Origin: Salinirubellus salinus
Lineage (GTDB): Archaea > Halobacteriota > Halobacteria > Halobacteriales > Haloarculaceae
DNA: 64,000 nt
Assembly: GCF_025231485.1 (NCBI RefSeq)
Contig: NZ_CP104003.1
Location: forward strand, 4,045,960 to 4,109,959
Direction of reading: 5' to 3'
Every line of letters begins with the position of its first letter. Position 1 is the stretch's first letter. The notes under the pieces are model-generated. The model saw only the letters and a program-made list of their open reading frames with translations, was not told the DNA's origin and made no database searches. Below, piece after piece: positions 1 to 48,955 of the stretch. A program made the translations under genes and the position numbers.

Positions 1-488
1 AGGTCCTCCATGCTGTTGGTCATCGCGCCGGCACCGAGGCTGGTGCGGAGCGCCCATACCGTCGAGGCGTGACACATCCGCGTGCAGTTGTCGACGTTGT
101 TGGTGCCGTAGCGGCGCGCGAGCTTCTGGAGGAGGTAGTTCTCCTCGTTCATCGTCTTCGAGGACCCGAAGAACCCCATCGCGTCGGGGCCGTGCTCCTC
201 GCGGATGCGCTCCAACTCGTCGACGATGCGGGAGTAGGCCTCCTCCCACGTCGCCTCGCGGAACTCGCCGTCCTCCTTGACGAGCGGGTCGGTCAGGCGG
301 TCCTCGTGGTCGACGACTTCGGTCGCCGCGCCACCCTTGATACAGATGCGGCCCTCGTTGACCGGCGCGTCGCCCCACGGCATGAACCGCATGTCGCCGG
401 GTTCGTCGCCGGGCATCACCTGGATGCCGCAGCCGACGCCACAGTACGGACAGATGGTCTTGACGGGTTCCTTCTCCTCACTGGACAT
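1..488 (-). CDS. fdhF: Formate dehydrogenase alpha subunit, N-terminal part (cut by window edge)
   Basis: Molybdopterin oxidoreductase that oxidises formate to CO2. Only about 162 N-terminal residues lie in the window; the rest runs off the left edge. Seen: an N-terminal [4Fe-4S] motif with Cys13, Cys16 and Cys20 (CPYCGVGC) and Cys49 (GRICIKGG), then the formate dehydrogenase active-site signature NCTRMCHAS near residue 140, where the second Cys sits at the position of the catalytic Cys/Sec. The start at 488 is chosen because GGAGGT lies about 8 bases upstream. No Tat signal is seen, so the enzyme is probably cytoplasmic. It faces formate-THF ligase two genes away, which fits a formate node in C1 metabolism. 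Confidence 0.88.
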   Translation of the reverse strand, partial: MSSEEKEPVKTICPYCGVGCGIQVMPGDEPGDMRFMPWGDAPVNEGRICIKGGAATEVVDHEDRLTDPLVKEDGEFREATWEEAYSRIVDELERIREEHGPDAMGFFGSSKTMNEENYLLQKLARRYGTNNVDNCTRMCHASTVWALRTSLGAGAMTNSMED

Positions 489-659
489 GGGTCATACCTC
501 CGGACAGTGCGTTCTCATGTGCGACTCTCTGTCAGAGACGTGGCGGTGCCACGGGCATCAATCTTCCGCGAGCAGGGGGGCCACCGGGGCCCGTACGGGG
601 CGATTCGACCTCGCTCGCCGGGGAAACGTTGAGGCCCGTGGCCGGGCAACAGGCGGCCG

Positions 660-1220
660 ATGGACCTGACCCGTGCGGTCGTCGAACGGGCGGCCGGGGA
701 GTACGAGGCCGTCCAGCCGATGTACACCGTCGAGCAGGAACACGTCGAGATGCTCCCCGAGACGTTCCGCAGCGGCGAGTACGGCTGGCGCGACGCCGAG
801 TGGGTCGTCCAGTGGCACTACCGCCGGTTCCTCGGCGCGTACCCGAACCGCGACCGCCGGGCCGCCGAGGGCGAGTACGACGAGAACGAGTTCGAGGACG
901 TCCTCGACGCCGTCGCGGGGGCCGTCGACGCCGAGGACACCGCCGCGCGACTCGGCGCGCTCACGGCCCTCTCGGGCGTCGACGTGCCGGTGGCCTCGGC
1001 GTTCCTCCTCTTCCTGTCGCCAGAACGGTACGTTGTGGTCGACGAGTGGACGTGGGGCGTGCTCCACGAGGCGGGGGAACTGGACGACCCCTATCCCGCG
1101 CCACCGGACGTCGAGGCCTACCTCGCGTTCGACGCGGCCTGCACCCGCCTCCGCGAGCGGTTCGACGTCGACGCGTGGACGCTCTACCGCGCGCTGTGGG
1201 TACTGGGCGGCGAGGCCTAG
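660..1220 (+). CDS. Conserved hypothetical protein, possible helix-hairpin-helix fold
   Basis: A 186-residue acidic protein with no signal peptide or membrane span. I do not recognise a named family. Around residues 105-130 the stretch GVDVPVASAFLLFLSPERY followed by VVDEWTW resembles the helix-hairpin-helix region of small DNA-glycosylase-like proteins, where a Gly-Val-Pro hairpin is followed by a Pro-Glu-Arg-Tyr/Phe segment and an acidic residue. That is a structural guess, not a function. The gene is convergent with the flavin oxidase downstream and overlaps its stop codon region by about 4 bases. It is divergent from formate dehydrogenase, with 171 bases between them. Confidence 0.7.
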   Translation: MDLTRAVVERAAGEYEAVQPMYTVEQEHVEMLPETFRSGEYGWRDAEWVVQWHYRRFLGAYPNRDRRAAEGEYDENEFEDVLDAVAGAVDAEDTAARLGALTALSGVDVPVASAFLLFLSPERYVVVDEWTWGVLHEAGELDDPYPAPPDVEAYLAFDAACTRLRERFDVDAWTLYRALWVLGGEA

Positions 1221-2578
1221 TCGGGGGCGAGCGCCGGCGTCGCCCGGAACAGCCCCTCGGGGTCCCAGCGCCGTTTCACCTCGACGAGTCGCTCGTAGTT
1301 CTCCCCGTAGGCCGCCCGTTCGCGGCGCTCGCCCTCCTCGCTGCCGACGAAGTTCGCCGCCACCTCGCCCGTCGTGTACGGCTCGACCGCCTCGTGGAAC
1401 GACTCGACCCAGTCGACGTGCGCCTCGTCGTCGGTCGGGTCGTCCCACCGGGCCTCGACGAGGAGGTGGTGGGCGTCCTCGCGGTGCGGGTAGGCGGTGG
1501 CGTCGGCAGGTGGGTCCGTCTCCGCGCCGCTCCGGGGCGAGACGAACACCGTCGCCCCGGCCGAGGGCGCTCGCTCGGCCCACCCGGTCACCGTCTCGAC
1601 GGCCCCCGCCGAGAGCGAGTCGAGGTACTGGCTCCGCAGGTGAGTCCGCATGCTCCCGCGGCTCTCGCCCGCTCGCTGGAACGCCGCGTACGGACGGGCC
1701 CGGAGGCTGTCGAACAGGGGGTCACCGAACTCGCGCAGCGGTTCCAGTACCTCGCGTCCCGCCTCCGGGTCTCCTGCGTAGCAGACGATACAGATGGCGA
1801 CACGGGTGTCGTGGACGGACTCTGGGAAGTACGACGCCGCCGGCAGGACCATGCTCCCGAAGAGGAGCCGGACCTCGCGCGGGGCGTCCGCGAGGAACGA
1901 CTCGTACCGGCGGGCGAGCGCCCCGGCCCGGTCGTGCGGGTGGACGAGCGAGCCCGCGAACACCTCGCCGACGGGGTGCAGGTCGAACTCGAAGGTCGTG
2001 ACGACGCCGAACGAGCCGCCCCCGCCGCGGAGCGCCCAGAACAGGTCCTCGTTCTCGGACGCGCTGGCGCGGACGAGGTCGCCGTCGGCGGTCACCACGT
2101 CGGCCGACCGGAGATTGTCGCAGGTCAGGCCGTACCTGCGGCTGAGCCAGCCGACACCGCCACCGAGTGTGAGTCCCGCCACGCCGATGTTCGGGTCCTG
2201 GCCGCCGGGGACGGCGAGGCCGAACGCGCCCGTCTCGTGGTCCACGTCGCCCCACGTCGCCCCGGGACCGACCCACGCCCGTTCGCGGTCCGGGTCGACC
2301 CGGACCCAGTCCATCGGCCGGAGGTCCAGCGTGAGGCCGCCGTCCGCGAGGGCGCTCCCGGAGACGTGGTGGCCGCCGCTCCGGACCGAGAACGGCAGAG
2401 AGGAATCGCGTGCGACCTCGACACCCGTGAGAACGTCCGCGGCGCCACGACAGCGGAGGACGGCCGCCGGGCGCTTCTCGACCCGGGCGTTCCAGAGCGT
2501 ACACGCCTCGGCGTACCCCTCGTCGCCCGGTTCGAGGAGCGCGCCACGGGTCCGGTCGCGGAGGCGTGTGAGGTCCAT
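1217..2578 (-). CDS. FAD-binding oxidoreductase, berberine-bridge-enzyme family
   Basis: A 453-residue flavoprotein of the PCMH/VAO superfamily with a C-terminal BBE motif region. The N-terminal FAD domain has RSGGHHVSG with His70, and a second attachment site with Cys153 in YGLTCDNL (C-x-x-L). Together these are the pattern of bicovalent 8-alpha-histidyl/6-S-cysteinyl FAD. FWALRGGGGSFGVVT around residue 180 is the conserved FAD-binding loop, and the C-terminus has the PYTTGEVAANFVG-type BBE segment. Members oxidise alcohols, sugars or alkaloid-like substrates with O2; the substrate here is unknown. No Tat signal is seen. It lies 7 bases after the stop of the formate-THF ligase gene on the same strand, so it may be co-transcribed. 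Confidence 0.85.
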   Translation of the reverse strand: MDLTRLRDRTRGALLEPGDEGYAEACTLWNARVEKRPAAVLRCRGAADVLTGVEVARDSSLPFSVRSGGHHVSGSALADGGLTLDLRPMDWVRVDPDRERAWVGPGATWGDVDHETGAFGLAVPGGQDPNIGVAGLTLGGGVGWLSRRYGLTCDNLRSADVVTADGDLVRASASENEDLFWALRGGGGSFGVVTTFEFDLHPVGEVFAGSLVHPHDRAGALARRYESFLADAPREVRLLFGSMVLPAASYFPESVHDTRVAICIVCYAGDPEAGREVLEPLREFGDPLFDSLRARPYAAFQRAGESRGSMRTHLRSQYLDSLSAGAVETVTGWAERAPSAGATVFVSPRSGAETDPPADATAYPHREDAHHLLVEARWDDPTDDEAHVDWVESFHEAVEPYTTGEVAANFVGSEEGERRERAAYGENYERLVEVKRRWDPEGLFRATPALAPD

Positions 2579-2585
2579 CCCCGAC

Positions 2586-4301
2586 TCAGAACAGCCCGGA
2601 GATGGTGCCGTCCGCGTCGATGTCCATGTTCGCCGCGGCGGGTTCGCTCGGGAGGCCCGGGAGCGTCAGCACGTCACCCGTCAGCGCGACGAGGAAGCCG
2701 GCGCCGGCCGAGGGGTACACCTCCGTCACCTCCAGCGTCCAGTCGTCCGGCGCGCCCTTCTTGCTCGGGTCGTCGCTGAGCGAGTGGAACGTCTTGGACA
2801 TGCAGATGGGCACGTCGTCGAAGCCGTGGTCGGTCAGGCGCTCGATGTCGTCCTCGGCGCTCCCGTGGTACTCCACGCCGTCGGCCCCGTAGATCTCCGT
2901 GGCGATGGTCTCGATCTTCTGCTTGATGGGGACGTCGAGGTCGTAGAGCGGCGTGAAGTCCGAGGGCGTCTCGGCCGCGTCCACGACCTGCTCGGCCAGC
3001 TCGACGCCGCCCTCGCCGCCGTCGCTGAACACGTTCGACTCGGCGGCACGGATCCCGAGGTCCTTGCAGTGGTCGATGACTGCCTGCACCTCCGCGTCGG
3101 TGTCCCCGGGGAAGCGGTTCACCGCGACGACGACCGGGACGCCGAACTTCTGGAGGTTCCGGACGTGCTTGTCGAGGTTCGCCAGCCCGCGCCGGACCAT
3201 CCCGACGTCCTCCGCCTCGAGTTCGTCGAGGTCCGGCGGCCACATCTCCTGCCCGTGGTACTTGAGCGCCCGGACGGAGGCGACGAGCGTCACCGCGTCG
3301 GGTTCCATCTCGCCGAACCGGCAGACGATGTTCATGAACTTCTCGGCCCCGAGGTCGGAGCCGAACCCGGCCTCGGTGACGAGGTACTCGGAGAGGCTAG
3401 AGGCGAGTTCGTCCGCCATCAGCGAGTTCGTGCCGTGGGCGATGTTGGCGAACGGGCCGCCGTGGACGAACGCCGGGGTCCCCTCGATGGTCTGGACGAC
3501 GTTCGGCTTCAGCGCGTCGCGCAGGAGGATGGTCACCGGCCCGGTCGCGTCGATGTCGTCGGCCGTGACGGGTTCGCCGTCCTCGTCGTAGGCGACGATG
3601 ATGCGCGAGACGCGCTCTTTCAGGTCCTGCAGGCTGTCGGCGAGACAGAGCACCGCCATCATCTCCGAGGCGGCGGTGAGGATGAACCCGTCCTCGCGGG
3701 GGATGCCGGTCACGTCCCCGCCGAGGCCCACCACCGTCTCGCGTAGCACCCGGTCGTTCATGTCGATGGCGCGGGGCCAGTTGACCCAGTTGACCGCGAT
3801 GTCGAGCTCGTTGCCCTGCTTGATGTGGTTGTCCAGCATCGTCGAGACGAGGTTGTGTGCCGAGGTGAGCGCGTGGAGGTCACCCGTGAAGTGGAGGTTG
3901 ATGTCCTCCATCGGGAGTACCTGCGACCACCCGCCGCCCGCGGCACCACCCTTCACGCCGAACACCGGGCCGAGCGACGGCTCGCGGATGGCGATGAGGG
4001 CGTCCTTGTCGATGTGGTTGAACGCCTGACCGAGCCCGACCGTCGTCACCGTCTTCCCCTCGCCCAGCGGTGTCGGGGTCATCCCGGTGACGAGGACGAG
4101 CTTCCCGTCGTCCTCCTTCTCCGCCGTCGCCCGCTCGATGGCGTCGAGTTTCACCTTCGCCTTGTACTCCCCCTGGAGCTCCAGGTCCTCGCGGTCGAGG
4201 CCGAACGGTTCGACCACGTCCGCGATGTGGCGCTTCTCGACTGACTGTGCGATCTCGTAGTCGTTCGGTATCGAGGAACCGCTCTCGTCTGGGGGTGACA
4301 T
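2586..4301 (-). CDS. fhs: Formate-tetrahydrofolate ligase
   Basis: Cytoplasmic ATP-dependent synthesis of 10-formyl-THF from formate and THF (the reverse also runs). About 571 residues, matching the usual 556-residue family length. The P-loop-like TPTPLGEGKTVTTVGL lies around residues 75-90, followed by the conserved REPSLGPVFGVKGGAAGGG and HFTGDLHALTSAHNL. I chose the ATG at 4301 over an in-frame start at 4346 because a TATA-like TTGATAA is centred 27 bases upstream of 4301, the normal spacing for a leaderless haloarchaeal message. With formate dehydrogenase and FolCP close by, it forms the folate C1 branch of this region. Confidence 0.95.
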   Translation of the reverse strand: MSPPDESGSSIPNDYEIAQSVEKRHIADVVEPFGLDREDLELQGEYKAKVKLDAIERATAEKEDDGKLVLVTGMTPTPLGEGKTVTTVGLGQAFNHIDKDALIAIREPSLGPVFGVKGGAAGGGWSQVLPMEDINLHFTGDLHALTSAHNLVSTMLDNHIKQGNELDIAVNWVNWPRAIDMNDRVLRETVVGLGGDVTGIPREDGFILTAASEMMAVLCLADSLQDLKERVSRIIVAYDEDGEPVTADDIDATGPVTILLRDALKPNVVQTIEGTPAFVHGGPFANIAHGTNSLMADELASSLSEYLVTEAGFGSDLGAEKFMNIVCRFGEMEPDAVTLVASVRALKYHGQEMWPPDLDELEAEDVGMVRRGLANLDKHVRNLQKFGVPVVVAVNRFPGDTDAEVQAVIDHCKDLGIRAAESNVFSDGGEGGVELAEQVVDAAETPSDFTPLYDLDVPIKQKIETIATEIYGADGVEYHGSAEDDIERLTDHGFDDVPICMSKTFHSLSDDPSKKGAPDDWTLEVTEVYPSAGAGFLVALTGDVLTLPGLPSEPAAANMDIDADGTISGLF

Positions 4302-4324
4302 GTCCCGACGTTCCGGAGACGCGG

Positions 4325-4331
4325 TTATCAA
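4325..4331 (-). promoter_or_regulatory. TATA box for fhs
   Basis: TTGATAA read on the minus strand, centred 27 bases before the ATG at 4301. This spacing suggests a leaderless transcript starting at or next to that ATG. Confidence 0.5.
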
Positions 4332-4560
4332 TGCTCGCGTACACATCAGCAGTCGGTGAGGTCGTGGTTCGTCGCCTCGGCGTTCCTGACCGGTCTCGTG
4401 GCCCGTTCGGCGAGGGATGGGTGGCTATCACGGGCCTGACGGGTGGTGGACGCCCGCCGCGTGCCGGTCGCGGCGCTGGCCCCATCCTGACAGTGAAATG
4501 GTAGAGCGTGGAGTCCGGTGCGCTGGTGGTCGTCGTCTGCCCCCGGCTCCCTTCGCTCGG

Positions 4561-6006
4561 TCAGTCTCCGCCGTGCTCGGCGACGTAGGCCGCGAGTTCC
4601 CGTTCGGCGTCGGCGTCCATCGGGGGACGCTCGTAAGCCGCGAGCCGCCGCTCGACCCGTTCGTGGGCCTGTTCGAACGCCGACTTCCCGCCGTCGTCGG
4701 CCCAGTCGCGGTGCGCGCGCTTGTCGACGAACGCCGACCGGAAGAAGCCGCTCTCGCCGCCCGCCGCCGAACCGGCCGCGCCGACGAAGTGGCCGGCCGG
4801 GTCCGTCCCCCCGATGCGTTCCAGGTCGAGGTGTGCCTCGTCCACGGCGAACCCCTCGCGGAACCGGTCGAGACACCGCATCGCCTCGCAGTCGAGGACG
4901 AACTTCTCGGGCGAGATGGTGGAGTACGACTCGAGGATGCCGGCCGCGTTGAGGACGAAGTCGATGCCGGCGAAGTCGGTCACCGTCTGGAGGAACATCG
5001 ACTCGAAGCCGCTCTGGTGGTCGACGGACTTCGCGTCCGAGAGGCCGCCGCCGGCCCGGGACGGGAGGCCGTAGAACGTGGCGAGTCGCGCGGCGGCGGC
5101 GACGAACAGCGCGGACTCCGGCGTGCCGATGGAGAGCGAGCCGTACCGGGGGTCAACGGTCGCCGTCGGCACGCCGTAGACGACGGGCGTGCCGGGGTTG
5201 ACCAGTTGCGTGAGCGTGATGGCGAGGAGGTTCTCGGCGTTGGCCTGCGCCAGCGACGCCGCGAGCGTCGGCGGCCCGGACGCCCCGGCGACGGTGAACG
5301 AGGAGACGATGGGGGGCTGCCCGTGCTCCGCGTACGTCAGGAGGCCACCGAGCATCTCGCGTTCGAGGCTCCGGGGCGGGACCGTGTTGACCAGCCCGGC
5401 CACGTAGGGCCGTGCGAGCTCCGGGTCGCCCGTGGCGATACCGACCATCTCCATGCAGGCACGGGCGCGTTCCTCTCCGTAGGTGGGACCCATCACCGGC
5501 TTGTCCGTGAGCGTCAGCGCCCGCTCCAGCATCTCGTAGTGTCCCGTCGCCTCGTCGATCGCCGGCGGCTCGCAGACCCGATAGCCCGTACAGCCGATGG
5601 CCGTCTCGACCTGCGCGAGCTTCACGAGCCGCTCGTAGTCAGCGCGCGTGGCCGGACGCCGGCCCTCCGCGTACGTCCGGACGTTCGGGGGACCGTAGCC
5701 CGGCGTGCGGACCGGCGGGCCGTCTCCGCCGACGACGACGTCGTTGGCCGGGTTCCGCGCGTGGAGGGTGAACGACGAGGGGGCGGCTCGGACGGCGTCC
5801 TCGACGACCTCGCGGGGGACGGTGACCACGTCCCGCTCGTCGACGTGGCCGCCGTGGCTCTCGAGCAGCGAGCGGGCACGCTCGTGGCCGAGCTTGACGC
5901 CGAACTCCTCGAGGATGCGCATGGACGCTTCGTGGATGGCCGTACACTCCTCCTCGTCGAGTCGGTCGAGCGACGGCAGGCCGGTGGCCGTCCCGTCGTG
6001 ATCCAT
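4561..6006 (-). CDS. Trimethylamine methyltransferase (MttB) family protein, non-pyrrolysine
   Basis: A 481-residue member of the MttB superfamily, whose characterised members transfer a methyl group from a methylated amine or betaine to a corrinoid protein. Family landmarks are EASMRILEEFGVKL near the N-terminus, the middle GYGPPNVRTYAEGRRPAT, and the central core with GGLSDAKSVDHQSGFES. There is no in-frame TAG, so this is the MtgB-like (glycine-betaine type) branch rather than the pyrrolysine enzyme. The start at 6006 is supported by a TATA box (CTTATCC) about 28 bases upstream. It is divergent from folCP. No corrinoid protein or corrinoid reactivase gene is in the window, so the methyl acceptor is unknown. 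Confidence 0.88.
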   Translation of the reverse strand: MDHDGTATGLPSLDRLDEEECTAIHEASMRILEEFGVKLGHERARSLLESHGGHVDERDVVTVPREVVEDAVRAAPSSFTLHARNPANDVVVGGDGPPVRTPGYGPPNVRTYAEGRRPATRADYERLVKLAQVETAIGCTGYRVCEPPAIDEATGHYEMLERALTLTDKPVMGPTYGEERARACMEMVGIATGDPELARPYVAGLVNTVPPRSLEREMLGGLLTYAEHGQPPIVSSFTVAGASGPPTLAASLAQANAENLLAITLTQLVNPGTPVVYGVPTATVDPRYGSLSIGTPESALFVAAAARLATFYGLPSRAGGGLSDAKSVDHQSGFESMFLQTVTDFAGIDFVLNAAGILESYSTISPEKFVLDCEAMRCLDRFREGFAVDEAHLDLERIGGTDPAGHFVGAAGSAAGGESGFFRSAFVDKRAHRDWADDGGKSAFEQAHERVERRLAAYERPPMDADAERELAAYVAEHGGD

Positions 6007-6030
6007 GCCCCAACAGTACCCCCATTCGCC

Positions 6031-6040
6031 GGATAAGGGT
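6031..6040 (-). promoter_or_regulatory. TATA box for the MttB-family gene
   Basis: ACCCTTATCC on the minus strand, centred about 28 bases before the ATG at 6006, consistent with a leaderless start. Confidence 0.5.
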
Positions 6041-6192
6041 TCGCGTCGGCACACCGTTCTGCCGAGGCGAACCGGCCGCTGTCGGGCGGTCGTGGGCCGT
6101 CGGTGACCGGCCGTCCTCCCGTGCGCGTCCGCGCGTTCCTCCACCTGCACGTGGGCTGAGTGGTTGTGCTTCGACACCCCCCGAATCCGGGA

Positions 6193-6199
6193 TTTAATA
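6193..6199 (+). promoter_or_regulatory. TATA box for folCP
   Basis: TTTAATA ends 28 bases before the ATG at 6227. It supports that ATG as the start and argues against an in-frame ATG at 6164 that lies upstream of the promoter. Confidence 0.6.
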
Positions 6200-6226
6200 C
6201 GCTGTCTGTCACAACGTCTCGGAGTC

Positions 6227-8656
6227 ATGGAGTACCACGAGGCGGTGAACCGTCTGGAGCGACTACGGCGGCTCCGGCCGAAACTGGGGGTGGGGACCAC
6301 CGCCTCCCTGCTGGAGACGCTGGGGGACCCACAGGAGGGCCTCCCGGCGGTGCAGGTCGCCGGGTCCAACGGGAAGGGGAGCACCGCGCGAACGCTGGAG
6401 CGCGTCCTGCGCGAGGCGGGGCTGACCGTCGGGCTCTACACCTCGCCGGACCTGAACGACCTGCGCGAGCGCATCCGCGTGCGAGGCCAGAAGATACCGA
6501 AACACGAGGTGTCGCGGTTCGTCGAGGTGGCGTGGCCGGAGATCGTCGACCGGTCGGTCGAGGGCGACGAACCGACGTTCTTCGAGACGTTCACCGCGCT
6601 GGCGCTCTGGCGCTTCGACCGCTCGGACGTGGACGTGGCCGTCCTCGAGGTGGGCATCGGCGGGCGCTACGACGCGACGAGCGTCGTCGACCCGGTGGCC
6701 AGCGCCGTCACCAGCGTCAGCCTCGAACACACCGAGATCCTCGGGGACACCGTCGAGGAGATCGCCCGCGACAAGGCCAACGTCACCCCCGCGGAACGAC
6801 CCCTCGTCACGGGCGCGACGGGGGCGGCCCTCGACGCCATCCGCGCCGACCACCCCGTCCTCACCGTCGGCCCGGAGGACGCGGACGTCTACGCCAGCGA
6901 GGGCGAGGTGGTCTCGCCGACGGCGTCGAAACTCTCGCTCGTCGGCCCGGACTGGGCCGTCGAGACGCGGACGCCCCTGCCGGGCGCGCACATGGCGACC
7001 AACGCGGGCATCGCCGCGACGCTCGCCAGACAGGTCGGGGACGCACTCGGCGTGGACGTGACCGAGGCCGACATCGCCGCGGGCGTCCGGAACGTCCACG
7101 CTCCCGGCCGGTTCGAGGTGATGGACCACGCGCCACTGACCGTCCTCGACGGGGCGCACAACCCGGACGCGTGTGTGAAACTGGCCGACACGCTCGAACG
7201 GCTCGAGTACGACTCGCTCCACCTCGTGTTCGGCGCGATGCGCGAGAAGGACCACCCCGCGATGTGCCGCGCGCTCCCGGCCGCCGACCGGGCGTACCTC
7301 GCGGAACCCGACGTGGAACGTGCCCGCGGGACGGACACGCTGGCGACCGTCTTCGACCGGGAGACGGACGCCGCCGTCGACACGTTCGACTCCGTCCTCG
7401 GGGCGCTGGAGGCCGCCTGCTGGGCGGCCGACCCGGGCGACTGTGTCCTCGCCACGGGGTCGCTCTACACCGTGGCGGAGGCCCGCGACCACTGGACGCG
7501 GAGTCCGCGTGTCGTGCGTACCGACTCGCACGGGGCCGCGCGTGAGGCGCTGGCCAGCGCGGACGTCCCCCGCGCCGTCCGGACGGACCGGGTGGACGCG
7601 ATGGTCGACCGGACGCTCCGGTTCCACGTCCGCCGCGGGCGGGCGGGCGAACTGGTCGGTCGGATGCGCTCGCTCGGCGGGACGGGCGCCGTCTCGGGTA
7701 TCGAGGCGGCCGACCAGCACGTCGAGGTGGTGCTGACGGGGACGCTCGACCAGTTCCGCGACCTCGTGCGGTACGTCCGGGCCTGCCCCGACGGCCGTCG
7801 CCTCGCGGGACGGGTGAACCGGGCGCTCGGTATCGGCACCGACGAGACGCCCGCCGCCTACCCCTGGCACGACGGCACCGCCGTCATGGGCATCCTGAAC
7901 GTCACACCCGACTCCTTCCACGACGGCGGGGAGTACGACACCGTCCCGGCGGCCGTCGACCGGGCCGAGGCGATGGTCGTCGACGGCGCGGACATCGTCG
8001 ACGTGGGTGGGGAGTCGACGCGCCCCGGTGCGGACCCGGTGCCGGCGGCCGAGGAGCGCGAGCGCGTGGTCCCGGTCGTCGAACGACTGGCCGACCTCGA
8101 CACGTTCGTCTCGGTGGACACCCGGAAGGCGCTGGTGGCCGAGGCCGCACTCGAGGCCGGCGCCGACATGGTGAACGACGTGACCGGCCTCGGGGACGCG
8201 GCGATGCGCGAGGTGGTCGCCGCCCACGACGTGCCGGCCGTCGTGATGCACAGCCTCTCGGCACCGGTGGACCCGCACCACCGCTACGGTTACGACGACG
8301 TGGTCGACGACGTCCTCGAGGGGCTGACCGAGCGGGTGTTGCTTGCCGAGCGTGCGGGGATCGACCGCTCGAATCTGCTCCTCGACCCGGGGCTGGGGTT
8401 CGGCAAGCGGGCGGCCGAGAGCTTCGAGCTCCTGGACCGACTCTCCGAGTTCCGGGCGCTGGGGACGCCCGTGATGGTGGGACACTCCCACAAATCGATG
8501 TTCGAGGCGGTGGGGTGCGGTCCCGACGAGCGACTCGCACCCACCGTCGCCGCGACGGCCCTCGCGGCAGAACGCGGCGCGGACGTCGTCCGGGTCCACG
8601 ACGTGGCCGAGAACGTCGCCGCCGTCGAGACGGCCCGGAAGACCCGGGGGGAGTGA
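6227..8656 (+). CDS. folCP: Bifunctional dihydrofolate synthase / dihydropteroate synthase
   Basis: An 809-residue fusion making folate in the cytoplasm. Residues 1-420 are a FolC-type Mur-ligase module with the ATP loop AGSNGKGSTA (residues 45-54), which ligates glutamate to pteroate. Residues 430-550 are a linker domain. From residue 554 there is a complete FolP: MGILNVTPDSFHDGG, then GADIVDVGGESTRPGA and a C-terminal HSHKS pterin/phosphate loop. FolP condenses p-aminobenzoate with the pterin pyrophosphate. This fused form is known from Haloferax. Its place between the MttB-family and GcvT-fusion genes suggests that the C1 carrier here is true folate. Confidence 0.93.
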   Translation: MEYHEAVNRLERLRRLRPKLGVGTTASLLETLGDPQEGLPAVQVAGSNGKGSTARTLERVLREAGLTVGLYTSPDLNDLRERIRVRGQKIPKHEVSRFVEVAWPEIVDRSVEGDEPTFFETFTALALWRFDRSDVDVAVLEVGIGGRYDATSVVDPVASAVTSVSLEHTEILGDTVEEIARDKANVTPAERPLVTGATGAALDAIRADHPVLTVGPEDADVYASEGEVVSPTASKLSLVGPDWAVETRTPLPGAHMATNAGIAATLARQVGDALGVDVTEADIAAGVRNVHAPGRFEVMDHAPLTVLDGAHNPDACVKLADTLERLEYDSLHLVFGAMREKDHPAMCRALPAADRAYLAEPDVERARGTDTLATVFDRETDAAVDTFDSVLGALEAACWAADPGDCVLATGSLYTVAEARDHWTRSPRVVRTDSHGAAREALASADVPRAVRTDRVDAMVDRTLRFHVRRGRAGELVGRMRSLGGTGAVSGIEAADQHVEVVLTGTLDQFRDLVRYVRACPDGRRLAGRVNRALGIGTDETPAAYPWHDGTAVMGILNVTPDSFHDGGEYDTVPAAVDRAEAMVVDGADIVDVGGESTRPGADPVPAAEERERVVPVVERLADLDTFVSVDTRKALVAEAALEAGADMVNDVTGLGDAAMREVVAAHDVPAVVMHSLSAPVDPHHRYGYDDVVDDVLEGLTERVLLAERAGIDRSNLLLDPGLGFGKRAAESFELLDRLSEFRALGTPVMVGHSHKSMFEAVGCGPDERLAPTVAATALAAERGADVVRVHDVAENVAAVETARKTRGE

Positions 8657-8891
8657 CCGGGCGCCGAACCACGACCTGTCAGGCCCTGGTGGGGTTGTGT
8701 GGACGTGCGGGTGCGCGGGCGCACCGGGCCGCCTGCTCCGGACTCGTCGTCGCTCCCCACACTGCCCGAGTGAGTCCCCGGATGGCGCGAGGATGGGCGT
8801 CTCGTCCGTGTTCGGGGTCCAGTGGGGTGGACTCGGCGTGGCGCAGCGACTACCGGTTCGACCCGCCGAGTCCCCGTGTTCCACGCACATC

Positions 8892-8917
8892 GTATACGGA
8901 ATCTGTCAGGTATACGG
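8892..8917. repeat. Direct repeat GTATACGG x2, candidate operator
   Basis: Two exact copies of GTATACGG 18 bases apart, the second ending 3 bases before the TATA box. Two half-turns-related sites directly upstream of the BRE/TATA would suit an activator or repressor of the methyl-amine oxidation operon. Confidence 0.4.
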
Positions 8918-8920
8918 CCT

Positions 8921-8928
8921 TTTAATAT
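8921..8928 (+). promoter_or_regulatory. TATA box of the DMGO-like/etf operon
   Basis: TTTAATAT, 29-36 bases before the ATG at 8957. A leaderless transcript from it would begin at the 29-codon ORF rather than at the large gene at 9043. Confidence 0.6.
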
Positions 8929-8956
8929 CGGGCGAGACCCGAACTCGTGAACGAAC

Positions 8957-9046
8957 ATGAGATTGCCAGACCCTAGCACGGGTATCGCGTCCGCAGACCT
9001 GACGTCGGGCGAGGCAGCCCCGGCGACGGCGGGTGGTCGGCGATGA
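8957..9046 (+). CDS. Possible 29-residue leader ORF
   Basis: ATG at 8957 opens a 29-codon frame, beginning MRLPDPSTGIAS and ending AGGRR. Its TGA overlaps the ATG of the FAD-GcvT gene (ATGA at 9043-9046). The TATA box lies at the right distance for leaderless initiation at this ATG, and the ATGA overlap suggests translational coupling. The peptide resembles no family I know and has no obvious run of a regulatory amino acid. It could instead be a 5' leader of about 90 bases with a chance ORF. Confidence 0.4.
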   Translation: MRLPDPSTGIASADLTSGEAAPATAGGRR

Positions 9047-11652
9047 GTTCGAAGCAGTTCCCGGCCTCGGCCGAGACGGTCATCCTCGGCGCGGGTATCG
9101 TCGGGAACAGTCTGGCGTACCACCTCGCTCGGTACGGTCGGGACGACATCGTCCTCGTCGACAAGGGGCCGCTCCCGGACCCGGGCGGCTCGACGGGCCA
9201 CGCCTCGAACTTCCTGATGCCGGTCGAACACTCGAAGGAGATGACCCACCTCACACGGCGCTCCATCGAGCAGTACAAGGAGTTCGACACGTTCGTCAAC
9301 TCGGGCGGTATCGAGGTGGCCCGCACGGACGAGCGGGTCGAGGAACTGAAACGCCGGGTGCAGTCGGCGAAGGCGTACGGCGAACCGGCCGAACTCCTCA
9401 CGCCCGAGGAGGTGGAGGAGATGCTCCCGTACGTCAACACGGACATCATCAAGGCGGGGTTCTACAGCCCCGGTGCCGGCACCTGCGACCCGCTCCGGGC
9501 GGGCGAGGTGATGCGGGCCCGGGCCGACGCCATCGCCTCGGGCGAGGTCGCCCCCGAGAACGTGGGCGAGGTGCAGGCCGACGGCGGCGTCCAGACCCAG
9601 CGACCCGAGAGCACGGGGGGGCTCCACGTCTCGCCGAACACGGAGGTCCTCGACATCCACGTCGAACACGGTGAGGTACAGGCCGTCGAGACGGACCGCG
9701 GGACCGTCGAGGCCGACGAGGTCATCATCGCGGCGGGGCTCTGGAGCCCGAAGCTCGCGGAGATGGCGGGCGTCGACATCCCGCTCACGCCGGCCGTCCA
9801 CCAGATGGTCAGCGTCGGGCCCATCTCCTTCTTCGAGGACTACGAGGGAGAGATCTCGTTCCCGGTGCTGCGTGACATGGACACCCAGATGTACGAGCGA
9901 CAGCACGGCAACGACCTCGAGGTCGGCTCCTACCAGCACCGGCCCATCCTCTGGGACGTCGACGACGTGCCCTCCATCGACGAGGCACCGCTGTCGCCGA
10001 CCCAGCCGCCGCTCACGGACGACGCGTTCGAGCAGTCGATGGCCGACGCCCTCGAGATCGTGCCGGATCTGCTCGACGACCCGAACGCGGGCATCCGCCA
10101 CGAGATAGACGGCCTGCTCTCGCAGACGCCCGACGGCGGCCCGCTCCTCGGCCCACTGCAGGACGTCGAGGGGCTGTGGTCGGCCGCGGCCGTCTGGATC
10201 AAGGAGGCGCCGGCCATCGGCGAGGCCATCGCCCAGCTGATGACGCGGGGCTACTCCGACATCGACATCCACGCCTCGGACGTCAACCGGTTCTACCACT
10301 ACGGCACCTCGCGGGAGTTCGTGAAGAACCGCGCCCACGAGGGGTTCAAGAAGACGTACGGCATCGTCCACCCGGCCGAGCAGTGGCAGTCCTCGCGGCC
10401 GCTCCGGACGAGTCCGTTCTACCACCGGCAGGACGACCTCGACGCACGGTTCTTCGAGGCCGCCGGCTGGGAACGACCCCAGTGGTACGAGTCCAACGAG
10501 GACCTCCTCGAGGAGTACAGCGAGGAACTCGAGGGGCTGGACCGCCCCAACGAGTGGGACTCCCGCTGGTGGGACGAGACCATCCTCGCCGAGCACCTCC
10601 ACATGCGTGACAAGGTGGCGATGGTCGGCGACATGGGCTTCGGCATCTTCGACCTCCGTGGCGACGACGTGACGGCGTACCTCGAGGGGATGGTCGTCGG
10701 CCGCGTCGACGTCGACGTCGGCAAGACCGTCTACACGCCCGTCCTCGCGCCGAACGGGGGGTTCGTCTCGGACCTCACCATCGCGCGGCTCGGCGAGGAC
10801 CACTACCGGGTCGTGACCGGCGGTGCGGCGGCCGGCTCCGACCGTTCGTGGTTCCAGAGCCACATCCCCGAGGACGCGGACGTGAAGCTCATCGATAACA
10901 GCGAGGCGCTCTGCACGCTCGGGGTCTGGGGGCCGGACGCCCGCGACCTCGTCCAGAGCGTCACCGAGGAGGACGTGTCCCACGAGGCGTTCCCGCCGTA
11001 CACGGCCCAGGAGATCACCGTCGGCGAGGTGGACGCGTGGGCGATGCGCCTCTCGTACGTCGGCGAACTGGGCTGGGAGATATACGCCCCGATGGGGCAG
11101 GGCCAGCGGCTCTGGGACGTCCTCTGGGAGGCCGGACAGGAGTACGACGTCCGCCCGGTCGGGATGGGCGTCTACGGGACCACCGGCCGACTGGAGAAGG
11201 GCTACCGCCTGTTCGGCCACGAACTCGAGTCCGAGTACGACCCCTCGGAGGCCGGGCTGACCTTCCACGGTGTGAAGGACGCCGACTTCGTCGGGAAGGA
11301 GGCGTACGCCGAGGCCATCGAGGAGGACGACGCGGCGACGCTCTGTACGCTCTCGGTCGACGACCACACCTCGGAGTCCGGCGAGCGCCGGTTCATGCTC
11401 GGCGGTGAACCCATCGTCGACGAGGACGGCGAGGTCATCGTCGACGAGGAGGGCCGCGAGTCCTACGTGACGAGCGCGGGCACCGGCCCGACGGTCGGGA
11501 AGCACCTGCTGATGGCGTACCTGCCGCCGGAGTACGCGGAGGAGGGCCAGCAACTGCAGGTGGAGTACTTCGACGAGACGTACCCGGTGACCGTCGAGGT
11601 GGCCGGGAGCCGACCGCTGTTCGATCCGGAGAACGAGCGCATCCGGTCCTGA
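9043..11652 (+). CDS. FAD-dependent oxidoreductase-GcvT fusion (dimethylglycine/sarcosine oxidase-like)
   Basis: An 869-residue protein with a DAO-type FAD domain (GAGIVG, residues 16-21) and GSTGHASNF, in which His53 sits where dimethylglycine and sarcosine dehydrogenases attach FAD covalently. From about residue 500 a complete GcvT/aminomethyltransferase-like domain follows, with RLSYVGELGWEIYAP and a C-terminal barrel. Relatives oxidatively demethylate N-methylglycines and pass the formaldehyde-level carbon to THF as 5,10-methylene-THF. ETF genes directly downstream suggest electrons go to ETF, as in dehydrogenases, rather than to O2. The exact substrate is inferred, not shown. Confidence 0.88.
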   Translation: MSSKQFPASAETVILGAGIVGNSLAYHLARYGRDDIVLVDKGPLPDPGGSTGHASNFLMPVEHSKEMTHLTRRSIEQYKEFDTFVNSGGIEVARTDERVEELKRRVQSAKAYGEPAELLTPEEVEEMLPYVNTDIIKAGFYSPGAGTCDPLRAGEVMRARADAIASGEVAPENVGEVQADGGVQTQRPESTGGLHVSPNTEVLDIHVEHGEVQAVETDRGTVEADEVIIAAGLWSPKLAEMAGVDIPLTPAVHQMVSVGPISFFEDYEGEISFPVLRDMDTQMYERQHGNDLEVGSYQHRPILWDVDDVPSIDEAPLSPTQPPLTDDAFEQSMADALEIVPDLLDDPNAGIRHEIDGLLSQTPDGGPLLGPLQDVEGLWSAAAVWIKEAPAIGEAIAQLMTRGYSDIDIHASDVNRFYHYGTSREFVKNRAHEGFKKTYGIVHPAEQWQSSRPLRTSPFYHRQDDLDARFFEAAGWERPQWYESNEDLLEEYSEELEGLDRPNEWDSRWWDETILAEHLHMRDKVAMVGDMGFGIFDLRGDDVTAYLEGMVVGRVDVDVGKTVYTPVLAPNGGFVSDLTIARLGEDHYRVVTGGAAAGSDRSWFQSHIPEDADVKLIDNSEALCTLGVWGPDARDLVQSVTEEDVSHEAFPPYTAQEITVGEVDAWAMRLSYVGELGWEIYAPMGQGQRLWDVLWEAGQEYDVRPVGMGVYGTTGRLEKGYRLFGHELESEYDPSEAGLTFHGVKDADFVGKEAYAEAIEEDDAATLCTLSVDDHTSESGERRFMLGGEPIVDEDGEVIVDEEGRESYVTSAGTGPTVGKHLLMAYLPPEYAEEGQQLQVEYFDETYPVTVEVAGSRPLFDPENERIRS

Positions 11653-11720
11653 ACCGGCGGCGCTCGACCCGGATCCGACTCGCCCCTGACGACCACACGA
11701 CCCACAGCACACGAAGGAAC

Positions 11721-12482
11721 ATGGATACACTAGCTTGTGTCAAGCGCGTACCGGACACCGGTGCGAAGATCGTACTGACCGACGACCAACGAGCCATCGA
11801 CACGTCCAACCTCGGGTTCACGATGAGCCCGCACGAGGAGTGTGGTCTGGAGGAGGCGGTGCAGATCGCCCAGGACACCGGCGGGACGGCGACGGCACTC
11901 ACCCTCGGCACCGCGGAGGCCGACGAACAGCTCCGGACCGCGCTGGCGATGCAGGCCGACGAGGCGGTGTTGCTCGAGACCGAGGAGCGCGAGTGGGGGC
12001 CCCTCGACACCGCGACGGCCATCGCCGACTACGTCCGGGAGACGGACGACGAGTACGACCTCCTCCTGTTCGGCACGGAGTCGGCGGACAACGGGAACTA
12101 CCAGGTCCCCATCCACGTCGCCACGCAGCTCGGCCTGCCGGTGGTGACGGCCATCAAGCACATCGAGGTGGAAGACGACACGGTGGTCGCCCGACGCGAG
12201 GCGGGCGGCGGCGAGGAGGTGTACGAGCTGGAGACGCCCGCCGTCGTCGGCGTCAAGGAGGGACTGAACGAGCCGCGCTACCCGTCGATGCGCTCGAAGA
12301 TGCGCGCCCGGCAACAGGAGGTCGAACAGCACCACCCCGAACCGGGCGGCCGCGACCGGCTGGAGATGGTCCGGCTGGAGGCGCCCGAACAGGACGAGGG
12401 CACCGCCGAGATACTCGGCGAGGGGCCGGAGGCGACGCCACGTATCGTCGAGATACTGCAGGAGGACCTGGAGGTGCTCTGA
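11721..12482 (+). CDS. etfB: Electron transfer flavoprotein beta subunit
   Basis: A 253-residue ETF small subunit that binds AMP/FAD jointly with the alpha subunit and shuttles electrons from flavin dehydrogenases. The N-terminus MDTLACVKRVPDTGAKIVL, NLGFTMSPHEECGLEEAV and the recognition-loop region PAVVGVKEGLNEPRYPS are diagnostic. It starts 68 bases after the FAD-GcvT gene with no clear promoter between, so co-transcription is likely and the FAD-GcvT protein is its probable electron donor. The C-terminal extension after residue 200 is acidic, as usual in haloarchaea. Confidence 0.93.
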   Translation: MDTLACVKRVPDTGAKIVLTDDQRAIDTSNLGFTMSPHEECGLEEAVQIAQDTGGTATALTLGTAEADEQLRTALAMQADEAVLLETEEREWGPLDTATAIADYVRETDDEYDLLLFGTESADNGNYQVPIHVATQLGLPVVTAIKHIEVEDDTVVARREAGGGEEVYELETPAVVGVKEGLNEPRYPSMRSKMRARQQEVEQHHPEPGGRDRLEMVRLEAPEQDEGTAEILGEGPEATPRIVEILQEDLEVL

Positions 12483-12484
12483 CG

Positions 12485-13453
12485 ATGGTGCTCGCACTGG
12501 TGGAACACGAGGCGGGCGTGCCGGAGGACTCGTCGCTGGAGATGCTGACGCTGGCCCGTGGCGTGGCCGAGGAGACGGACGAACCGCTCACGGCCGTCGT
12601 CGTGGGCGCGGAGGCGGCGGGCGTGGCCGACGACCTCGGTACCTACGGCGTGGAGACGGTGTACGTCGTCGACCACGAACGACTCGACGACTACGCGCCG
12701 GTGGCGTGGGCCACGAGCGTCGACCAGCTGGCGGCCGACCTCGACCCGGACGCCGTCGTCGCGCCCGGGAGCACCCGTGGGCACGAGGTGCTCGCGCACG
12801 TCGCGGCGCGCCGAGAGCAGTCGATGGCCGCGAACTGTATCGAGGTGACGACGGGCGAGGAGTACGAGCTCACCCGCCAGCGCTGGGGCGGGACGCTGCT
12901 GGAGGAGGCTCGTCTCGGCGGCGACACGAAACTGCTGACGGCGGCCGCTCACGAGGTGAGCGCCGAACCGGCCGACTCGCCGACGGAGCCTGCCGTCGAG
13001 TCGTTCGACCCGTCGCTCGACGAGGAGGCGTTCGAGGTGCGCGTGACGCGCCACGAGGCGTCCGACGTGGAGGGCGTGCCACTCGGCGAGGCACGCGTCG
13101 TCGTCGGCGGTGGTCGCGGCGTGGGCGGCCCCGACGGCTACGACCAGCTCGAGGAGCTCGCGGACCTCCTCGGCGGGGCGGTGGGTGCCTCCCGCGCCGC
13201 GGTCAACGAGGGGTGGCGGCCCCACGACGACCAGGTGGGACAGACGGGGGCGAAGATCTCGCCGAAGCTCTACGTCGCCTGTGGCATCTCGGGTGCCGTC
13301 CAGCACATGGTGGGCTGCAAGGGTGCCGAGAACATCCTCGCCATCAACACCGACCCCGAGGCGGCCATCATCCAGAAGGCACGTTGGGCCGTCGTCGGTG
13401 ACCTCCACGAGGTGGTGCCGGAGCTCAACGAGTCCATCCGCTCGGCCAACTGA
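12485..13453 (+). CDS. etfA: Electron transfer flavoprotein alpha subunit
   Basis: A 322-residue ETF large subunit, the FAD-binding partner of EtfB. The C-terminal FAD-binding signature is intact: GQTGAKISPKLYVACGISG followed by AVQHMVGCKGAENILAINTDPEAA. The ATG at 12485 is 2 bases after the etfB stop, which indicates one message. EtfAB normally hands electrons to an ETF-quinone oxidoreductase (FixC/FixX type), and none is present in the window. Confidence 0.93.
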   Translation: MVLALVEHEAGVPEDSSLEMLTLARGVAEETDEPLTAVVVGAEAAGVADDLGTYGVETVYVVDHERLDDYAPVAWATSVDQLAADLDPDAVVAPGSTRGHEVLAHVAARREQSMAANCIEVTTGEEYELTRQRWGGTLLEEARLGGDTKLLTAAAHEVSAEPADSPTEPAVESFDPSLDEEAFEVRVTRHEASDVEGVPLGEARVVVGGGRGVGGPDGYDQLEELADLLGGAVGASRAAVNEGWRPHDDQVGQTGAKISPKLYVACGISGAVQHMVGCKGAENILAINTDPEAAIIQKARWAVVGDLHEVVPELNESIRSAN

Positions 13454-41990: not shown

Positions 41991-42953
41991 TCAGTCCACC
42001 TTGTTCACGTAGAGACCGTAGTTGTAGAGCGTCTCGCCGTCCCAGAGGAGGTTGTCGTTGTCGACGCCCGGCTCCTCGACGGAGAGGTCGAGGCGGTCGA
42101 GGAGTTCCTCGTAGGTCGCCGAGAGCGGCGTCGTCTCGCGGTACTCCTCGAGTCCTCGCGCCCGCTCGAACAGCTCGCGGACATCGCTCGAGAGGTCGTC
42201 CGGGGCGAGCTCCACGTCCACCCGGTCGGCCAGCACGATCTCGTGGAACGCCTCGCGGGAGTCGGCGACCTCGACGGCGTGGGCCGTGTAGGCCGTCTCC
42301 AGCAGCGACTCGGTCTCGGTCGTCAGGCGGTAGTTCCACGGCCCGTCCTCGGTCATCGAGACGACACGGCCGTCGAGGTCGCCGCTGGCGAACTGGCCCT
42401 CGAGTTCGGCGGGTCGACGGAGGACGTAGCCCCCACCGTCGGTCAGGAGGTCCACACCGCCGCCCTGTCCGCCGCTCTGGATGCCCGAGTGGTGTATCTT
42501 GACGACGCGAGCGTCCACCCGCGAGAGCTCGTCGACGAGCAGAGCGTCGTCGGGGACCTCCTCCTCGGGAACCTCCTCGGCGTAGACGACCTGCCGCTCC
42601 ATCCGCTTCCGGCCGGTGACGAGCACGTCGGTCTGGAAGTAGCGCCCCTCGTGTTCGACGTAGTGGTCGCTCGCGAGGGGCTCGTAGCCGTAGGTGGTGT
42701 AGCGGCCGTCGGGGAGGATGGCGTCGAGCGCCTCGCTCGCGGTCCGGTCCAGCGGGTGTGTCCGCTCGTCGTCGCGGAACAGCACGTACTCGACGGGCGA
42801 CTGGTCGACGTGGATGAAGCTCAGTGTGTACTCGAACCGCGGGCCGGACTGACCGAGGTCGTCGAGGGCGGCACAGCCGGCGAGACCGACCGCGAGACCG
42901 GCCGCGCCGGCGCCGAGGAACTGCCGTCTGGAGGGAGGGCTGTCGGAGACCAT
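41991..42953 (-). CDS. Tat-exported lipoprotein, unknown family
   Basis: 320 residues. The Tat/lipobox signal is SRRQFLGAGAAGLAVGLAGC with the anchoring Cys at about residue 27. The mature protein contains YTLSFIHVDQSPVEYVLF, EALDAILPDGRYTTYGYEPL and DNDNLLWDGETLYNYGLYVN. It contains no obvious enzyme motif. It is convergent with the GMC gene (18 bases apart) and on the same strand as the G8 protein, which ends 54 bases upstream of its start. Co-expression of two exported proteins is possible. Confidence 0.78.
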   Translation of the reverse strand: MVSDSPPSRRQFLGAGAAGLAVGLAGCAALDDLGQSGPRFEYTLSFIHVDQSPVEYVLFRDDERTHPLDRTASEALDAILPDGRYTTYGYEPLASDHYVEHEGRYFQTDVLVTGRKRMERQVVYAEEVPEEEVPDDALLVDELSRVDARVVKIHHSGIQSGGQGGGVDLLTDGGGYVLRRPAELEGQFASGDLDGRVVSMTEDGPWNYRLTTETESLLETAYTAHAVEVADSREAFHEIVLADRVDVELAPDDLSSDVRELFERARGLEEYRETTPLSATYEELLDRLDLSVEEPGVDNDNLLWDGETLYNYGLYVNKVD

Positions 42954-43007
42954 ACGTGGCGGTCGTGTCGCCCCCTGAATAAGTCTTCAGACTCCGGGGA
43001 CCGCCAC

Positions 43008-45971: not shown

Positions 45972-46033
45972 GGTGGTCTGACGCGGGGGTCGCACACCCC
46001 CACGCGGTCACCCTGTTCTCACGCCGAATTCGA

Positions 46034-46042
46034 CTTAAAAAA
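46034..46042 (-). promoter_or_regulatory. AT-rich promoter element of the G8 gene
   Basis: TTTTTTAAG on the minus strand, the strongest AT run in the 178-base divergent gap, about 65 bases before the ATG at 45971. It would give a 5' leader of about 35 bases. Confidence 0.4.
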
Positions 46043-46117
46043 CTGGGCGAACTCGGCTCTCGATTCTCGTGTCACGGCGCCGCTCGCCGCGGCTCGGGTG
46101 GGTGAGCGGGGCGCAGG

Positions 46118-46125
46118 CTTATACG
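46118..46125 (+). promoter_or_regulatory. TATA box for the 123-residue protein
   Basis: CTTATACG centred about 28 bases before the ATG at 46150. Confidence 0.45.
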
Positions 46126-46149
46126 AGTGTGTCACGTACTCACACGTCG

Positions 46150-46521
46150 ATGTCGCGCTCGTCGGAGGGAGAGACACGTGGCGTCCGCTACGGCACCGTC
46201 GTCGAGGACGGCGAGGTGTACGTCCAGACGGACGACGGTCTGCTCTGGGTGGCCGGGATGGACGACGTCGTCGCCGCGGTGGGCGGCCCGGCGTGGACCA
46301 TCTCGTACTCCGACTGGGAGCGCGAGCGCTACGACCTCGACACCTCCGACGAGGGACTGACGGTCTCCGTCGTCGACATGGCGGCGGCGATGGAACACGG
46401 CGGGCGGTTCGTGGAGACGCTGGCGGCGATGCCGGCGACGACGCGCGACGGCGACCTCTCGCCGCGGGCGGGGCTGTTCGTCGGGAAACTGCTGGAGAAC
46501 CTCCAGTCCGGCGTGGCCTGA
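46150..46521 (+). CDS. Conserved hypothetical protein, 123 residues
   Basis: ATG at 46150, set by CTTATACG about 28 bases upstream. The N-terminal half is beta-rich (GVRYGTVVEDGEVYVQTDDG, LLWVAGMDDVVAAVGG). The C-terminal half is helical (TVSVVDMAAAMEHGGRFVET, LFVGKLLENLQSG). It is acidic and soluble. No family recognised. It is convergent with the zinc-ribbon gene, whose stop codon begins 2 bases after this one ends. Confidence 0.68.
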   Translation: MSRSSEGETRGVRYGTVVEDGEVYVQTDDGLLWVAGMDDVVAAVGGPAWTISYSDWERERYDLDTSDEGLTVSVVDMAAAMEHGGRFVETLAAMPATTRDGDLSPRAGLFVGKLLENLQSGVA

Positions 46522-46522
46522 C

Positions 46523-46651
46523 TCAGGCCCGGAACTCCATCCTCGCGCCACAGCCCGGACACGTCGACGCGGGCGTGTTCGTCCGTCTCAGCGGCGGCAC
46601 GCTGAGTGGGAGCCGCCGTACCGCGCCACAGTTCGGACACTCGAATCGCAT
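46523..46651 (-). CDS. Small zinc-ribbon protein, 42 residues
   Basis: ATG at 46651, 42 residues. Two CxxC knuckles, MRFECPNCGAVRRLPL and ASTCPGCGARMEFRA, form a rubredoxin-like zinc ribbon. Tiny zinc-finger proteins of this size are common in haloarchaea and some affect growth or biofilm, but this one's role is unknown. It lies 46 bases after the OYE-like gene on the same strand and could be its last co-transcribed gene. Confidence 0.72.
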   Translation of the reverse strand: MRFECPNCGAVRRLPLSVPPLRRTNTPASTCPGCGARMEFRA

Positions 46652-46697
46652 GGGCACCGTACACTCCCGAGGGACGGAACCACTCGCTTGGCGGAGG

Positions 46698-48026: not shown

Positions 48027-48050
48027 GACACCCCCCGTAGCCCGCCCGCG

Positions 48051-48056
48051 ATAATG
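48051..48056 (-). promoter_or_regulatory. TATA box for the OYE-like gene
   Basis: CATTAT on the minus strand, centred 27 bases before the GTG at 48026; this decides the start. Confidence 0.5.
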
Positions 48057-48155
48057 AGTACCACGGGCGTGGTGAGAGCGACGCACGGCCGACGCCGGCG
48101 GGCCCGCGCCTACCGGAGGCCGAACGGCTTTGGCCCTGCCACCCGCCGTGTCGGT

Positions 48156-48955
48156 ATGTCCGAGACACACGCGCTCGACCTGTTCAGGCTCGATGGCGAC
48201 GTGGGCCTCGTCACCGGCGCGGCCAGCGGTATCGGCCGCGCGTTCGCCGAGGCGCTCGCGGAGGCCGGGGCCGACGTGACGCTGGCCGACGTGGACACCG
48301 AGGGCCTCGAGACGGTCGCTGGCGACCTGCGCGCCCGGACCGACGCCACCGTCCTCACCGCCGAGGCGGACGTGACCGACCCGGACGCCGTGGCCGCCGC
48401 GGTGGACGCCACCGTCGAGGAACTCGGCGGCCTGGACGTCGCGTTCGCCAACGCCGGCATCGGCCTGATGCACGGGTCGGTCGACTCCACCTCGCTCGAG
48501 GCGTGGGAGAAGGTCGTCGACGTGAACCAGAAGGGCGTCTTCCTCACGAACCGGGAGGCCGCGAAGGCGATGCGCGAGGACGGCGGCGGGAGCATCGTCA
48601 ACACCGCCTCGGTCCTCGGTCTCGTGGGGAGCGAGACGCCCGGACTGGGCGCCTACGTCGCCTCGAAGGGGCGGTCGTCCAGATGACCAAGCAGTTCGCC
48701 GCCGAACTGGGGCCCGACATCCGGGTGAACGCGGTGGCGCCGGGCTGGGTCCACACCGACATCGGCGGCGGGATGCTCCGCGAGGACGCGCCGGGGATGG
48801 AGCCGGTGCAGGAGCAGATGCGCCAGAAGACGCTGCTCGACCGCCTCGGGAAGCCGCAGGACCTCAAGGGCATCGCGGTGTTCCTCGCGAGCGAAGCGTC
48901 CTCGTACTGTACGGGGTGTGTCTACCCGGTCGACGGCGGGTGGACGGCTCTCTGA
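48156..48955 (+). pseudogene. Short-chain dehydrogenase/reductase (SDR), frameshifted as sequenced
   Basis: About 266 residues after repair: a classical SDR. The cofactor loop TGAASGIGRAFAEAL is at about 21-35. The Asp ending the second strand (ADVDTEGL) suggests NAD(H). NAGIG, the active-site Ser region SIVNTASVLG and YVASK (Tyr-x3-Lys) follow. The frame breaks directly after YVASKG at a four-G run (48668-48671); one more G continues AVVQMTKQFAAELGPDIRVN and a normal C-terminus ending VDGGWTAL. It is divergent from the OYE-like enzyme, so the two may share a substrate pathway. Confidence 0.87.

Follow-up and report, generated by a model that had tools for sequence, protein, structure and literature searches.

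A candidate glycine betaine gene island with a corrinoid-less MttB-family protein in Salinirubellus salinus

How might a methyltransferase of the MttB superfamily work in an organism that appears to encode no corrinoid protein for it? The question is raised by a stretch of 64,000 nucleotides from the haloarchaeon Salinirubellus salinus (the window; C1:4045960-4109959), part of a genome of 4.38 Mb in two contigs that is rated 100% complete. To my knowledge, every characterised MttB-superfamily enzyme works through a cob(I)alamin-type corrinoid, a cofactor that is oxygen-sensitive and requires an ATP-driven activase. An earlier note on this DNA had assigned one of its genes to the non-pyrrolysine part of the MttB family, and the frame is indeed open, with no in-frame amber (pyrrolysine) codon. 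The explanation that I favour, and to which I give about an even chance of being right as a whole, is that this gene belongs to an island for glycine betaine (GB) catabolism, in which an MttB protein descended from the GB methyltransferase MtgB would work without a corrinoid and the methyl group would reach tetrahydrofolate (THF). From gene content and sequence relationships I infer which substrate is used, which way each step runs, what accepts the methyl group and whether MttB partners a GcvT-fold protein.

The earlier note had seen no corrinoid protein or activase close to the gene, and this proves true of the entire genome. PF02310 has a single match here, the C-terminal domain of methylmalonyl-CoA mutase (177 bits, cut-off 57), and none of the MtgC/MttC type; PF02607 and RACo_C_ter (PF14574) have no match in this genome, the latter profile being positive in its Methanosarcina acetivorans control, and no RamA was found. 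A profile built from haloarchaeal corrinoid proteins (A2), run on 16 MttB-bearing genomes, gave full-length matches in five of them (G294, G297, G298, G299 and G301), which together with two that are positive by Pfam (G001 and G007) makes seven MttB genomes with a corrinoid protein. Eleven, this one and ten others, are without. The profile gave no matches, or weak mutase-like ones, in G000 (this genome), G277, G017, G061, G063 and G098, all rated 98-100% complete, and in G292, G293, G295, G296 and G300; several of the negative genomes are small metagenome-assembled genomes (MAGs), whose silence means little. G007, a Halodesulfurarchaeum-like genome that encodes two MttB proteins along with a complete corrinoid set of MtgC-like, MtgA-like and AcsV/RamA-like proteins (L016, L131, L132), provides the contrast: its MtgC/MtbC-type corrinoid protein lies about 20 kb from MttB in the same cluster, and the MtgA-like methyl-THF transferase and AcsV/RamA-type activase are encoded elsewhere in the genome. 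Two other genomes, H-GB1-1 (L057, L060-L062) and QS_1_68_17 (L063, L064), each have three or four MttB genes, of which some adjoin a corrinoid protein gene; these MttB genes may cover several quaternary amines.

By sequence, the nearest solved relatives of the S. salinus MttB protein are structures of the GB methyltransferase MtgB of Desulfitobacterium hafniense (DhMtgB; 2qne and 9yce, E 2e-105), followed by 4yyc and then by trimethylamine (TMA) MttB (4e-44). An AlphaFold2 model (predicted local distance difference test, pLDDT, 88.3; predicted template modelling score 0.88) agrees, matching 2qne and 9yce at Z 58.8 and 58.7, with 39% identity and a root mean square deviation of 1.8, and TMA MttB at Z 52.0; the TIM-barrel fold of the family is present (Z 51-59 to the MttB-family structures listed). 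Docking predicts that GB contacts Y94, N199, R309 and H345 of DhMtgB (PMC6855144), and in the alignment the first three are kept here as Y104, N207 and R317. The system had previously been described as a candidate for folate-linked methylamine or betaine oxidation. The folate and the betaine stand, given the transporters, MTHFR, FolD, Fhs and Fdh of the island, whereas methylamine fits less well than betaine because the protein resembles MtgB rather than TMA MttB.

The eleven corrinoid-less MttBs fall on one side of a single branch (support 99/95) that is found in 100% of bootstrap trees, and none of 500 shuffles scored as low. Because the alphaproteobacterial sequences are placed outside them, the eleven form a clade, and the tree shows a single origin for it; the second MttB of G001 and G007, a long branch, was omitted from the final tree. 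The clade was compared with a reference made up of DhMtgB and the 11 corrinoid-bearing haloarchaeal rows. Of the invariant reference columns, just two, His412 and Thr413, are absent from every clade member (0/11, against 11/11 of the corrinoid-bearing haloarchaeal rows), and the row next outside the clade, L064, which comes from a corrinoid-bearing genome, keeps the pair. The counterparts of these columns in Methanosarcina barkeri MttB are Q423 and T424, which sit in the dimerisation loop (396-452); in the MttB-MttC structure this loop holds the corrinoid protein (PMC9842639). In S. salinus the site is a degenerate loop with pLDDT <50 (codons 411-418; window 4753..4776, minus strand). Weakening is also seen at other positions, including His353, which corresponds to Tyr364, and Pro107, close to the Gly110-Thr111 rim. 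Losses are over-represented in the contact regions described (p = 0.011 against the reference above; p = 6e-5 with 30 alphaproteobacterial rows and 4yyc added, 43 rows in all, the corrinoid status of the alphaproteobacterial genomes not being established), but the contact zone was taken from PMC9842639 with margins chosen after some of the lost sites had been seen, so the enrichment is partly post hoc. A search confined to the alphaproteobacterial loci (L066-L096) recognised no corrinoid protein in the surrounding 10 kb or so. The conservation test was repeated without these sequences because their genomes were not searched for corrinoid proteins, and the enrichment weakened.

The corrinoid-less MttB is also under purifying selection (dN/dS 0.09-0.15). 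Of the two methyl acceptors envisaged in the earlier note, a remote corrinoid protein is contradicted: independent searches find the mutase as the sole B12-binding domain of this genome, and since neither it nor ten relatives yield a corrinoid protein, and since the docking motif is lost, a remote partner appears unlikely. The other option, a different acceptor, survives.

What else does the locus contain? All the genes named earlier were recovered by profile matches at their places, but the 13 kb then described is part of an island of about 38 kb, from about -22763 to 15633 in window coordinates, delimited by genes conserved with other MttB-bearing haloarchaea. Some 23 kb of it lie upstream of the window start, and these had been missed together with a berberine-bridge-type oxidase and an AFOR-family gene. 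Within the window, or entering it, are:

488 to -1656, minus strand: FdhA, formate dehydrogenase alpha, with its N-terminal part (1..488) in the window; TIGR01591, 746 bits (cut-off 666), with Molybdopterin, Molydop_binding and Fe4S4 domains
1217..2578, minus strand: FAD_binding_4/BBE (berberine-bridge-type) oxidase, accessory; PF01565, 106 bits, and PF08031
2586..4346, minus strand: Fhs, formate-tetrahydrofolate ligase; PF01268, 828 bits, and NF010030 over its cut-off
4561..6006, minus strand: the MttB-superfamily gene (MtgB-like, non-pyrrolysine, corrinoid-less clade), 481 aa; PF06253, 440 bits
6227..8656, plus strand: FolCP, second copy (folylpolyglutamate/dihydrofolate synthase plus dihydropteroate synthase, DHPS), its true start probably the ATG at 6227; PF08245, PF02875 and PF00809
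9043..11652, plus strand: FAD-GcvT fusion like dimethylglycine oxidase/dehydrogenase (DMGO/DMGDH); DAO, FAO_M, GCV_T and GCV_T_C in one chain, which places it in the family
11721..12482, plus strand: EtfB; PF01012
12485..13453, plus strand: EtfA, start codon read at 12485; PF01012 and PF00766
13900..15633, plus strand: AFOR-family aldehyde oxidoreductase; PF02730, 208 bits, and PF01314, 277 bits

Upstream of the window are:

C1:4023196: FolD2
L125:14691-16855, minus strand: PabA and PabB (aminodeoxychorismate synthase), PabB over the TIGR01824 cut-off
C1:4029657-4030514: MTHFR-like protein
C1:4030603-4031994 (L002:2601-3995), minus strand: DmdA-like GcvT-fold protein, 464 aa, best NCBIfam match dimethylsulfoniopropionate (DMSP) demethylase
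Upstream: two HTH_10 regulators
Also upstream: FolD, threonine/serine ammonia-lyase, a BCCT transporter, a universal stress protein and a TrkA-type channel
Upstream: a second BCCT transporter, then RidA (family assigned by eye), then FdhA

MttB is rare in the class, occurring in nine of 292 genomes, one of these being a fragment below the family cut-off. The Fhs-MttB-FolCP-DMGO-Etf order, in places rearranged or only partly present, is found in Halocatena marina, three Halopenitus genomes, Halobaculum gomorrense, Halobacterium bonnevillei and several MAGs, and because the block is syntenic in other haloarchaea it is not a chance assembly. In each of the eight MttB genomes searched, 11-26 kb separate MTHFR from MttB, and three of four relatives without MttB lack MTHFR. 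FolCP has another full copy in this genome (C1:341276), the island copy being a second one in most of the MttB-bearing genomes searched. The AFOR gene recurs in these islands, adjoining MttB or Fdh at L054, L055 and in G007, whereas the berberine-bridge-type oxidase between Fdh and Fhs is confined, among MttB islands, to this one and those of H. gomorrense and H. bonnevillei.

Read as a pathway, these genes would act as follows. BCCT proteins would import betaine, and the MttB protein would take the first methyl group off GB, yielding dimethylglycine with no corrinoid protein involved. The methyl group would be received by THF, through MttB alone or together with the DmdA-like protein, and MTHFR would oxidise methyl-THF to methylene-THF. 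The DMGO fusion would work with EtfBA to break down dimethylglycine, and perhaps sarcosine, loading further methylene-THF; FolD, Fhs and Fdh would then carry the one-carbon units to formate and CO2 with a gain of ATP. Glycine and a one-carbon unit would give serine, from which the serine/threonine ammonia-lyase with RidA would make pyruvate, and the second FolCP and PabAB would supply additional folate. A more specific version, which I consider possible but offer only tentatively, is that an MttB-superfamily enzyme demethylates a quaternary amine free of corrinoid and hands the methyl group directly to folate, by itself or while docked to a GcvT-fold THF protein, and that it arose from a B12-dependent MtgB that lost its partner within a single haloarchaeal lineage.

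The DmdA-like protein is the candidate for such docking. DmdA passes a methyl group directly to THF, as is established for DMSP, and the island protein co-occurs with MttB in 17 of 18 MttB genomes, compared with about a quarter of sampled Halobacteria that have it (my count from the class sample). It is a GcvT-fold relative of Pelagibacter DmdA, its best PDB match (3tfh, E 2e-42), but scores below the NCBIfam equivalog cut-off for DMSP demethylase (245 bits against 410). I rejected the idea that it simply took the place of the corrinoid protein one for one, since it also occurs in MttB genomes that do have a corrinoid protein. More widely in Halobacteria, including genomes without MttB, it adjoins MTHFR, and two DMGO genes often accompany them. 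An acidic, conserved protein of 341 aa (L125:17036-18061, plus strand), with no Pfam or NCBIfam match, travels with this MTHFR/DmdA-like/DMGO module.

Several points weigh against a corrinoid-free GB demethylation by MttB. I know of no biochemical precedent for direct N-methyl transfer from betaine to THF. The fourth predicted GB contact, H345 of MtgB, is Asn353 here, with Asn in 7 of 11 clade members, which may point to an altered chemistry or substrate. MttB genomes that do have a corrinoid protein also encode the DmdA-like protein. Finally, some haloarchaea that lack MttB, several of them also without PF00848, carry this protein together with MTHFR and DMGO genes, and it may therefore act alone on GB or DMSP.

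This last point leads to the strongest rival, namely that the betaine (or DMSP):THF methyltransferase is the DmdA-like protein on its own and that MttB has another role, on another betaine or in regulation or binding. Its kinship to DmdA and the MttB-less modules favour this, and the protein is possibly an unrecognised betaine or DMSP:THF methyltransferase. However, MttB is held by purifying selection and its GB pocket is mostly intact, and the 17/18 co-occurrence set against a quarter of the class suggests a shared pathway; that the DmdA-like protein does the work alone I consider rather unlikely. A second rival keeps MttB corrinoid-dependent, through free cobalamin or a carrier too divergent to be recognised. 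MV8460, a methanogen MtgB homologue, does methylate free cob(I)alamin in vitro (PMC6855144), but the searches of this complete genome and of ten relatives, the loss of the docking motif in the clade and the oxidation of Co(I) to be expected in an aerobic cell without activase make this improbable. Equally hard to credit is a thiol methyltransferase resembling BHMT, with three cysteines as a possible metal site: Cys139, Cys145 and Cys373 are invariant in all eleven clade members and are the sole cysteines of the Halopenitus copies, but Cys145 and Cys373 are present in most corrinoid-bearing haloarchaeal MttBs too, for which reason I rejected the site as specific to the clade, and the island context is folate, not homocysteine. 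The low dN/dS disposes of a decaying relic. The pterin domain of FolCP as an MtgA-like acceptor was rejected since the DHPS motifs of the housekeeping copy are intact in the island copy, and a Rieske GB monooxygenase as the first step since PF00848 has no match in this genome.

How does corrinoid-free GB demethylation, if correct, relate to known systems? The closest is MtgB/MtgC/MtgA of D. hafniense, which moves methyl from GB through a corrinoid to THF. The haloarchaeal protein shares with it the MtgB-like fold and sequence, most of the predicted GB contacts and surroundings in which THF is the end acceptor; unlike it, S. salinus has no MtgC, no adjoining MtgA-type protein and no RamA in the genome, and the His-Thr pair and the H345 equivalent are lost or changed. 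In Ruegeria pomeroyi, MtgB/MtgC/MtgD demethylates GB aerobically and in a THF-linked manner via a PF06253 protein, but needs the cobalamin-binding MtgC (PMC12478193), which is missing here, whereas the PF06253 protein, BCCT transporter, THF-linked one-carbon oxidation and serine ammonia-lyase are common to both. Among haloarchaea, the cluster HTSR_1736-1750 of Halodesulfurarchaeum formicicum has been read, in the passages found, as formate and one-carbon metabolism (PMC5437934). It is a homologous Fdh-Fhs-MTHFR-FolD-Etf-GcvT cluster, and the homologous locus of G007 holds an MttB gene; the Halodesulfurarchaeum-like G001 and G007 differ from S. salinus in their full corrinoid kit. A term search of that paper and the passages found gave no mention of "corrinoid", "betaine" or MttB. 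Use of GB by haloarchaea was proposed in 2011 from nearby BCCT and dimethylglycine-oxidase-like genes (PMC3102087), an arrangement repeated here; the passage concerned includes no MttB-type first step, MTHFR or folate genes. In metagenomes of the Bonneville salt flats, mttB of unstated host is relatively abundant and is listed under methanogenesis (PMC9765009).

A term search of the open-access literature found no report of a corrinoid-free MttB. If the reading is true, a clade that is selected, corrinoid-free and in possession of most of the substrate pocket would reveal an oxygen-tolerant route for MttB chemistry, or else a fold turned to another use. It would also offer a concrete gene set for betaine turnover in haloarchaea, the first demethylation having no assigned enzyme in the papers found. 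Apart from the island, the window also holds an open reading frame of 2147 aa (42243-48686, plus strand).

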